From Brachionus manjavacas (taxonomy: Eukaryota; Rotifera; Eurotatoria; Ploima; Brachionidae): a stretch of 64,000 bases of DNA. The position numbers and the translations under genes are program-made. The DNA lies in NCBI GenBank assembly GCA_019054805.1, contig JAHQIY010000006.1, positions 5,766,001-5,830,000 of the forward strand. The letters are read 5' to 3'. Shown piece by piece: positions 35,010-38,279 of the stretch (the first letter of the stretch is position 1; every line of letters begins with the position of its first letter). Below the pieces are notes generated by a model that saw only the letters and a list, made by a program, of their open reading frames with translations, was not told where the DNA came from and made no database searches.

Positions 35010-35862
35010 TTTCGTTTGACAGGGTAGGTCTCTTCAAGTTAAACTTCCATCGCTTAGTTTGATGAAAGTATCCTTATTTGGACTATAAACTTCCTGACAA
35101 ACCGGAAATAAAGAGTCTTTTTAGGACAGCATTGAGCAGAATAAAGAGATTTAACGAATGGAAGTCCAGAAGGGAGTGTTTTAGGTCCTCTCCTTTTGGC
35201 GATATTTATCTCTGAGGTAGTACATCGTTTAATTAAGCATTTAATCTGCAGATGACAGTAAGTTCCTGGCAACTATTAGAGGTAAAGGAAATTTTTTGAG
35301 GCATCAAAAGGATCCGAACTCACTCATTAAATAGTCTATAGCCTGGAATATGATTTTTAATTTGTAAAGATGCAAAGTGATGCTGGTCATTGTCCAAAAT
35401 TTACTGATTCTGAAAAAAATCTTGGAGTGACTCATTCACGCAATCTGAAGTTCTAAGCGCATATCAGGATGCAAGAAAATAAGGCAAGTAACTGGGAATG
35501 TAGCAGTAGACTAGCATTTCTAGGCCTGATTACGCTTAGCGAAAGAATAGAAAGAGGGGACTTAATCTTACTCTTTAAATTCCAAAGTGGCTTCAATCGA
35601 ATTAACTGGAAAAACTTCCTATCAGATGTAACTCGATATCTTCATCAGGGCATGCACAGGGAATCAGAGGATATAAAAGGACTGTTTAAACTCTCGGAGG
35701 AAATGATAAATCCTAGTTCAGTGAAATAATTCAAAAATGAGTACGATAAGTTCAAAAGTCCTTATCAAAAAGACATTTAAAAAATGCACAAAGAAGTCTT
35801 CATTGTAAGGCTTCTCCGCAAGTATCTTGCTGTATCTATTTACTATTATTATTATTATTATC
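35010..35862 (+). pseudogene. Old, heavily mutated LINE reverse-transcriptase relic
   Basis: Scattered RT signatures on the plus strand: GSVLGPLLLAIFI near 35172, ADDSKFLATI near 35250, and a C-terminal block LGLITLSERIERGDLILLFK near 35520. These follow the order in the better-preserved LINE at 1-2190. Frames shift repeatedly. It ends in an ATT microsatellite at about 35838-35860, consistent with a LINE tail. Confidence 0.8.
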
Positions 35863-36669: not shown

Positions 36670-36680
36670 TATAAAAAAAG
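36670..36680 (+). promoter_or_regulatory. Candidate TATA element of the H2A-like gene
   Basis: TATAAAAAAAG about 55 bp upstream of the start codon, followed by a less A/T-biased leader (GGCCCACAAG). Position and form suit a TATA box, but similar strings are frequent here. Confidence 0.3.
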
Positions 36681-36733: not shown

Positions 36734-38140
36734 ATGGAGAACGAATCAGAGGCAATTTTCAATGAAGACAATGACCAAAATTTAGTCATAGATGATGGTG
36801 ACTACGCAGAAAGAGATGAAGAAAAAGAAGAATACACCTACAACGAAACATTTGACCCGGATTATGTTCAGGAAGATGACCAGACCGAAAAAACTTCTGA
36901 GAAGCAAATTGAAGAAATCAAAACCTCGATGGCCCAAAAAGGTCTTTCGCCATCTGAACGTGGTAAAAAACTAGCCGAATTGAACAAATTTCGGAGAGGT
37001 CTTGGCATTGCCAAAAAGAAGCCAAAGAGCTTGTCGAAAAAATCGGGTGTTATTTTTCCTGTAAAAAGAGTTCTTGAAAATTTAAAGAAAATGCTGCCTG
37101 AAAAAATTATAAGCCAACAAGCTGGGGTCTATTTGGCTAGTGTATTGGAATACATGTGCTCAGAAGTTTTGGACTTGTCCGGGGAAGTAGCGAGGCAGGT
37201 TAAAAAAAAGCGAATAACACCCCATTTTATTCAGTTGTCTATTACTGGAGACGAAGAATTGCACAAATTGTTGAAAAATACAATCATAGCTCAAGGTGGT
37301 GTTACTCCATATATCCATCCGGAATTACTAGTAACCAAGTCCAGATACCAAAAGAGACCACGAGTCGAAACCGAGGCCGAACAAGAAGTTACCGGTCCAC
37401 AGTATAAAAAGATAAGTATGATTGAAAATGCTTCTCAGACCGAGCCTTTAGAAGAAATTACCACTTCAAGACAAGTTGATGACGCCTCACAAACAGACAT
37501 TTTTCAATCAAATGAAATGTTGTCTCCTGATGTCACAATTATTGAAGAAAAACAAGCGACACCTGAAAAAATGAGAAATTTTTCTCTTTATCAGAAAATT
37601 AATTCACTTCCGAAAAAGTCTATAGAACAACCAGATATAACATCAGCTCAAATGGCACCAGTGCGCGCAGACACAGATCTAGAATTGAGTGAGATCAACA
37701 GTCAAATCGAGAACATAACTGGCATAAATTTGGAGCGAGCAAGTACTCCGATGCACAGTGAAGAAGCAAGTCACTTGGAAGACTATCAATCAGGTTCAAG
37801 CAACCAGAACATTGAAATACATGTGAATAGAGAGCAGAGTTTGGAGACCATTCTGGAAACTGAAAACCGCGGTAATAATTCGGATAAAAATGCCTCTATA
37901 AATATTGAAAGTTATTTAAATGTACAGGCAAGTTCCGAAAAATTTATAGACAAACTATTGAACAATAAACCAGCGTTTGTGCCGCCTATGCCTGATGTTA
38001 GTCTACAAAAAATTTTAAAACCCTTGGAAAATCACATTTTAATTACAGATCGAAAAATAGTTCCCAATGTTGTATTCAAAAAATCTAAATACCCCGGAAG
38101 AAGATCTCGGAATTCGGAAAATTTTTACAAAATTAATTAA
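36734..38140 (+). CDS. H2A-like protein with long N- and C-terminal extensions
   Basis: Intronless, 468 residues. Residues about 104-200 are an H2A histone fold: SGVIFPVKRV, GVYLASVLEYMCSEVLDLSG, the RITPHFIQLSI block, GDEELHKLL and the docking segment IIAQGGVTPYI. Positions that form the H2A acidic patch are acidic here too (E in VLEY, E in CSEV, D in VLDL, and DEE). Residues 1-60 are strongly acidic and 75-104 basic (GKKLAELNKFRRG, KKKPKSLSKK). After the fold come about 270 residues with no recognised domain. This tail has no macro domain and no terminal SQEY/SQEF-type motif; it does carry paired ASQTE/ASQTD motifs at 233 and 251. Canonical H2A is about 130 residues. It presumably acts in the nucleus with an H2B partner; its role is unknown. 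The start has a good AAAATGG context, and AATAAA is at 38274-38279. Confidence 0.85.
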   Translation: MENESEAIFNEDNDQNLVIDDGDYAERDEEKEEYTYNETFDPDYVQEDDQTEKTSEKQIEEIKTSMAQKGLSPSERGKKLAELNKFRRGLGIAKKKPKSLSKKSGVIFPVKRVLENLKKMLPEKIISQQAGVYLASVLEYMCSEVLDLSGEVARQVKKKRITPHFIQLSITGDEELHKLLKNTIIAQGGVTPYIHPELLVTKSRYQKRPRVETEAEQEVTGPQYKKISMIENASQTEPLEEITTSRQVDDASQTDIFQSNEMLSPDVTIIEEKQATPEKMRNFSLYQKINSLPKKSIEQPDITSAQMAPVRADTDLELSEINSQIENITGINLERASTPMHSEEASHLEDYQSGSSNQNIEIHVNREQSLETILETENRGNNSDKNASINIESYLNVQASSEKFIDKLLNNKPAFVPPMPDVSLQKILKPLENHILITDRKIVPNVVFKKSKYPGRRSRNSENFYKIN

Positions 38141-38273: not shown

Positions 38274-38279
38274 AATAAA
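38274..38279 (+). terminator. Candidate polyadenylation signal of the H2A-like gene
   Basis: AATAAA 134 bases after the stop codon. There is no stem-loop of the replication-dependent histone mRNA type that I can see before it, which would suit a polyadenylated replacement-type transcript. Confidence 0.45.

Follow-up and report, generated by a model that had tools for sequence, protein, structure and literature searches.

A protein of 468 residues that carries an H2A histone-fold core between two long arms is encoded by a single-exon gene of the rotifer Brachionus manjavacas. We propose with moderate confidence that this protein is a lineage-specific, replication-independent nucleosomal H2A variant that tethers disordered arms to chromatin. 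The gene occupies positions 36734-38140 (forward strand; G000:C6:5802734-5804140) of the window, which is the whole stretch of 64,000 nucleotides that was analysed. The genome that was searched comprises 114.17 Mb in 61 contigs. Of the eight oligos in Table 1 of a gene-editing study of B. manjavacas, three sequences were tried (the vasa and mlh3 guide targets and a vasa primer); each has a single exact match in this genome, and the two vasa matches are within about 90 bases of each other (PMC10395877). This places the host as that monogonont rotifer or a near-identical sibling.

The focal ORF is a single intact frame of 468 codons that runs from the ATG at 36734 to the TAA at 38138-38140 without an internal stop. 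The longest open run across 500 base shuffles of the same ORF was 130 codons. The annotated frame exhibited the top codon score of the six frames in 6/6 ORF segments, both arms included. In absolute terms, the scores of the core (0.02) and of the last 88 residues of the ORF (-0.14) were low, and the scoring is rough because its model was trained on the other ORFs of the 64-kb window only. These scores give no indication that the C-terminal tail lies beyond the transcript. The GC content is 0.37 inside the ORF and about 0.27 on both flanks. A TATA-like word (TATAAAA, 36670-36676, forward strand), of a kind that is frequent in AT-rich DNA, is located 64 nt 5' of the ATG, and a putative polyadenylation signal (AATAAA, 38274-38279, forward strand) is located 133 nt 3' of the stop. 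Broken remains that resemble a LINE retrotransposon were noticed by eye at 35060-35830, some 900 bases 5' of the gene. Pfam families above cut-off were found in seven of the ten other window ORFs that were scanned, and none of them is unusual in an animal (inorganic pyrophosphatase, a B-box/filamin/NHL protein, PSMD12 in two pieces, syndecan, and two reverse transcriptases).

The core and its docking segment consist of residues 106-202 (37049-37339, forward strand), which were delimited by Pfam, PDB, predicted structure, and fold matches. The Pfam model Histone_H2A_C (PF16211) matches residues 174-203 (37253-37342, forward strand) at 42.5 bits against a cut-off of 20, and the Histone model (PF00125) scores 33.4 bits against a cut-off of 26.4. 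The earlier note had described a 468-residue protein with an embedded H2A core, and this description was borne out with its coordinates exact. The same note had asked whether the core would score better as another histone-fold family; the CBFD_NFYB_HMF model (PF00808; NF-Y/archaeal histone) reached 15.1 bits, under its cut-off of 21.4. A histone fold of NF-YC or TAF type was ruled out on this score and on the presence of the H2A_C domain. Both features of the H2A superfamily, namely the H2A histone fold and the C-terminal docking domain, were found by Pfam and fold matches. The best 50 of 1378 Foldseek matches are all nucleosome, hexasome, or histone-octamer entries that are 41-53% identical to the focal protein. 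In the single-chain model, the core helices 110-120, 128-155, 163-172, and 174-180 are confident, with pLDDT of 80-91 over residues 111-180, and the docking end (181-202) is low-confidence (pLDDT blocks 54 and 46).

The nucleosome-facing residues were compared using position numbering, position lists, and roles that we take to be standard. The acidic patch (E56, E61, E64, D90, E91, and E92) is identical at 5/6 positions to that of the canonical H2A of the same species (P0009), the remaining one being E64D, and the docking segment (82-119) is identical to P0009 at 21/38 positions. The acidic-patch and docking residues are thus largely kept, as the earlier note had claimed. The DNA-side positions stay basic in 10 of the 13 that were checked, with R17L, R32E, and R42I as the losses. 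Among the other H2As of this genome, P0004 and P0006 keep 13/13 of these positions, P0005 keeps 12/13, and the H2A.Z protein P0007 keeps 11/13; the divergent P0002 (contig C12) and P0003 (contig C8) keep only 6/13 each. The sequence supports a true, normal-looking H2A core that would be able to sit in a nucleosome.

The N-terminal arm consists of an acidic part (residues 1-62; 36734-36919, forward strand) with a net charge of -21 and a basic segment (residues 63-105; 36920-37048, forward strand) with a net charge of +12, both by charge count, in agreement with the acidic-then-basic extension that had been claimed. Part of the basic segment resembles the paralogue on C12. A pre-core helix is predicted at residues 73-89 (36950-37000, forward strand; block pLDDT 80-87), and the structure model has a further confident helix at residues 50-67. 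The N-arm alone acquired only Pfam matches below cut-off. The best of them is the H-NS N-terminal model (residues 47-75, 16.5 bits, cut-off 24.5, E 0.008) and the other is CDC45 (E 0.38); both are taken as compositional.

The C-terminal tail (residues 203-468; 37340-38137, forward strand) consists of 266 residues with a net charge of -9 and is mostly predicted disordered, with pLDDT mostly below 50. The most confident helix of the tail is at residues 311-329 (37664-37720, forward strand; block pLDDT 76-78), a weak helix is at 391-410 (56-65), and the C-terminus (residues 441-468; 38054-38137, forward strand) is basic with a net charge of +7 by charge count. At E<=10, Pfam gave no match to residues 203-468, with HMMER filters that remove most weak matches, and the PDB gave no sequence match to residues 213-468. 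The claim of a long C-tail without a known domain held when the tails were searched alone, with no family above cut-off. The search of the genome with the C-tail returned the tail itself as the sole match, in single copy. The VIA-align rows carry no evidence on the C-tail.

An ATM/ATR-type SQ cluster in the arms that could substitute for H2A.X was rejected since the SQ/TQ count of the focal protein (3 seen vs 3.4 expected) is not above that of shuffles. For the C12 protein, a slight SQ/TQ excess is confined to the N-arm (4 vs 1.6, p 0.046 uncorrected). Two SQT[E/D] motifs of the focal tail (residues 234-237 and 252-255; 37433-37498, forward strand) are LC8-like. SQT[DE] occurred twice in 8/50,000 shuffles, and some repeated 4-mer occurred in 9270/20,000 shuffles. 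LC8 binding by the SQTE/SQTD pair is a lead because the motif was picked post hoc and repeated 4-mers are common in shuffles; neither the SQT nor the SQ motifs are above chance once the choice of motif is allowed for.

The focal protein differs from each known H2A class that was compared. Canonical replication-dependent H2A has a short SGRGK tail and a 3' stem-loop, whereas the focal protein has 468 residues and its gene has no exact copy of the histone stem-loop within 250 nt 3' of the stop. H2A.X ends in SQ[E/D]-hydrophobic, whereas the focal protein ends in SENFYKIN. This H2A.X end is present in 0/22 H2A C-ends of the genome; the protein of locus L079 ends in SQE and is perhaps a worn-down H2A.X. 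H2A.B and the short H2As have a shortened docking domain and have lost the acidic patch, whereas the focal docking segment aligns gap-free and the acidic patch is kept as described above. H2A.Z is marked by a one-residue insertion in L1, a docking segment that is one residue shorter, and a LEYLTAEVLELAGNA-type alpha2 (PMC12459048). The focal protein has neither indel and its alpha2 is LEYMCSEVLDLSGEV, whereas both H2A.Z proteins of this species carry both indels. The focal protein resembles macroH2A in that a very long C-terminal part follows its H2A core, and macroH2A is the best PDB match of the core; however, the focal tail has no macro domain by Pfam and an N-arm is present. Separate genes for canonical H2A, two H2A.Z proteins, and macroH2A with macro-domain exons exist in the same genome, and therefore the focal protein is none of them. 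The earlier note had judged that the protein matches none of H2A.X, H2A.Z, macroH2A, or H2A.B, and these comparisons agree.

Histone genes elsewhere in the genome exhibit the stem-loop that the focal gene lacks. The stem-loop GGCCTTTNTCAAGGCC is located 28-41 nt 3' of the stop in 13/22 H2A genes and is absent in the other nine, the focal gene included; this set leaves out truncated H2A fragments and macroH2A. Exact GGCCTTTNTCAAGGCC copies number 27 genome-wide, all on the histone-cluster contigs C1, C2, and C38, and the reversed control gave 0. Because the pattern derives from four of those H2A genes, variant loops would escape it. Stem-loops of the GGCCTTTNTCAAGGCC form were observed at L013, L020, L022, and L025, and Rfam had no match at gathering score in the window or in the 15 loci searched. 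The macroH2A genes are two near-identical-looking copies with introns (L077 and L038; G000:C6, at about 2.321 and 2.347 Mb) that are 26 kb apart. Both copies consist of H2A exons followed by macro-domain exons, and the nine macro-domain matches genome-wide are all away from the focal gene. MacroH2A has been called vertebrate-specific (PMC2642717; PMC3701536) and also ancestral to Bilateria (PMC12153100).

A second long-armed H2A of 246 residues, P0002, was identified on C12 (L076:1904-2644; G000:C12:3094403-3095143). Apart from itself, the full-length focal protein matches P0002 best in the genome (93.3 bits; next 85.1), and the focal protein is the best match in the reverse search (96.2 bits; next 81.0). 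The match reaches the basic arm (ERGKKL/ERGKRL), and this N-arm match was equalled by 11/1000 shuffles. Gapped comparison of the two N-arms gave p 0.03 for the whole arms and p 0.01 for a chosen segment. In the P0002 model, a helix at 34-56 covers the stretch that matches the focal pre-core helix. Both AF2 models were built from the same ten sequences, so the helix that they share is not independent evidence. Comparison of the C-tails did not show kinship, as 43/400 shuffles were as good. The P0002 tail holds KRVLGDITN, which we take to resemble a cyclin-type destruction box. Another divergent H2A of 162 residues, P0003, was identified on C8 (L075:1383-1871, minus strand). The P0003 search gave 55.9 bits for P0002 and 52.8 for the focal protein, with canonical H2A close behind at 51.2, and its N-arm showed no kinship to the focal N-arm. 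The acidic patch of P0003 is acidic at 3/6 positions (E61, D90, and E91 are lost, and D replaces both E64 and E92), and most of its docking end is not recognisable. With the focal core only, BLASTP scored macroH2A1 (110 bits), two H2As of the same species (99.0 and 98.6), and a PDB H2A (95.5) all above P0002 (94.7). The AU test neither showed nor rejected one clade for these relatives (p 0.40 and 0.39 in the 15-row set, 0.31 in the 13-row set). The trees of both sets exhibit very long branches and leave the focal protein unplaced.

The similarity to macroH2A was weighed as a possible origin. MacroH2A1 scored 102 bits and most other H2A chains 85-91 among the best 60 of 212 PDB matches, the lead of macroH2A1 over the next match in core BLASTP (110 vs 99 bits) points the same way, and the words GVIFPV and IHPELL are common to the focal core and the PDB macroH2A1 chain. 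These similarities would fit descent from macroH2A with loss of the macro domain and acquisition of a new tail, but the species has its own two-copy macroH2A with macro-domain exons and the focal core is less similar to it (75.5 bits). The support for grouping with PDB macroH2A is weak (54/86), the p-AU for a group with both macroH2As is 0.22 in the 15-row set, and the best tree of the 13-row set does not contain the grouping (p-AU 0.33). With a tail that has no macro domain and a gene that has a single exon, such a derivative is very improbable. A macroH2A with a distant macro exon was rejected since the true macroH2A sits elsewhere on the contig. A viral origin was also rejected: the scan of viral contigs with the focal protein gave 10 pattern matches and no relative among them.

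The protein could also be an H2A fold that acts outside the nucleosome. Paired with H2B or another partner of the histone fold, it would belong to a chromatin or transcription complex, or it would serve as an acidic H2A-H2B carrier. H2A-like folds outside nucleosomes do exist, e.g., NF-YC and SOS, and the length and acidic arms of the focal protein are unlike those of a packaging histone. The loss of three DNA-side basic residues and a docking end that is low-confidence when modelled alone would suit this reading. This reading is nevertheless unlikely, given that the sequence largely keeps the acidic patch and the docking segment, both of which are important mainly inside the nucleosome, and that the NF-Y/HMF model is under cut-off. 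The long branch and single copy could instead mark a recently silenced or functionless duplicate that drifts towards loss. In an annelid histone survey, in which rotifers are unmentioned in the available text, low expression led to several genes of unknown orthology being called pseudogenic (PMC12153100). Such decay is quite improbable for the focal gene, which has 468 open codons, the best in-frame codon score in 6/6 segments, and the residues of the fold kept.

For the nucleosomal variant that we favour, the retained residues and the fold suggest that the core would pair with H2B and dock on H3-H4 within the nucleosome. Part of the grip on DNA may be weakened by the substitutions, above all by R32E and R42I near the L1 loop, and the basic pre-core helix may bind DNA or the nucleosome edge. 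Supply would be replication-independent, a reading that is drawn from the lack of a stem-loop near the stop, the AATAAA on the 3' side, and the confinement of loops to C1, C2, and C38. In the least certain step, the acidic N-arm and the slightly acidic, disordered C-tail could project outward as a tethered platform or a condensate-forming brush. This platform or brush might give selected chromatin a special packing or recruit partners, most plausibly in the germ line or resting-egg stages. The loss of R17, R32, and R42, the low-confidence docking end (181-202), and the 6/13 basic positions in the C12 and C8 relatives count against this explanation. So do the facts that P0002 is not the closest on the core alone and that the trees leave the protein unplaced, as well as the pseudogenic annelid histones (PMC12153100).

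Plant H2B.8 is likewise a core histone with a negatively charged disordered region, and that region condenses chromatin and is still functional when scrambled (PMC9668745). By analogy, a tail of this kind could be functional even if its motifs are not conserved, and an orphan tail would be consistent with that (PMC9668745). The analogy is functional only and homology is not claimed, as H2B.8 is an H2B with an N-terminal insertion that was tested in plants (PMC9668745).

We put forward only tentatively, as possible but doubtful, the broader idea that an H2A class of their own, with long disordered arms and a basic pre-core helix, arose in monogonont rotifers and that its nucleosomes bear a histone-encoded scaffold. 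If so, chromatin compaction or partner recruitment would be built into the histone itself. To our knowledge, no H2A other than macroH2A would bear a scaffold as large, and the extension of macroH2A, unlike the focal arms, is a folded domain. Long-tailed histone variants are rare. MacroH2A and plant H2B.8 illustrate that an added histone part can set chromatin state, and a second, unrelated long extension beside a retained macroH2A would mean that the same route was taken again. We take B. manjavacas, as a monogonont, to have both asexual and sexual reproduction and resting eggs. The species is editable by CRISPR (PMC10395877). With both reproductive modes and resting eggs, a loss of function would be directly testable in the host.

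Comparing the focal protein to reported lineage-specific histones, the bdelloid H2Abd, H2Abd1, and H2Abd2 are also rotifer H2As with extended C-tails (PMC2642717). However, a link to the bdelloid variants, which the earlier note had suggested, was not supported: the host is a monogonont, and by description the bdelloid tails reach 28-43 residues past LLPKK, compared with 266 residues after the core plus an N-arm in the focal protein (PMC2642717). For the monogonont Brachionus calyciflorus, 13 H2A sequences have been reported, of which 12 are intronless (PMC3701536). H2A10 is one of the intronless ones, with a weak best hit of 8e-26 over 866 bases, and judged by description it may be the orthologue of the focal gene or of P0002 (PMC3701536). 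The focal gene may thus already be in print without having been singled out (PMC3701536). H2A10 is expressed, with FPKM of 13.0 and 18.9 in obligately asexual and sexual strains that are not significantly different, which, if it is the orthologue, counts against a sex-specific role (PMC3701536). H2A11 of the same species has a long tail, as the focal protein does, but it has three introns and was likened to macroH2A (PMC3701536). H2A.N of brown seaweeds is also lineage-specific with a lengthened N-tail and genes apart from other histone genes, but it has about 30 extra residues compared with about 100 in the focal N-arm, and a long C-tail is not described in the part of the source available (PMC12459048). 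H2A.3 and H2A.4 of Oikopleura are divergent and said to be unlike any universal or lineage-specific variant; arms as long as the focal ones are not described in the accessible text (PMC3156773). H2A does not occur in the available text of three Brachionus papers (PMC5333405, PMC12571253, and PMC10821554). A description of such a protein was not found among the matches listed in searches of the open-access literature, outside which most subscription journals lie.

Divergent H3 genes were also noticed by eye in the genome at L068 and L069 (C16) and at L071-L073 (C29 and C4). They include two H3 variants of 148 residues whose N-tails are altered, as well as split genes of CENP-A-like appearance.
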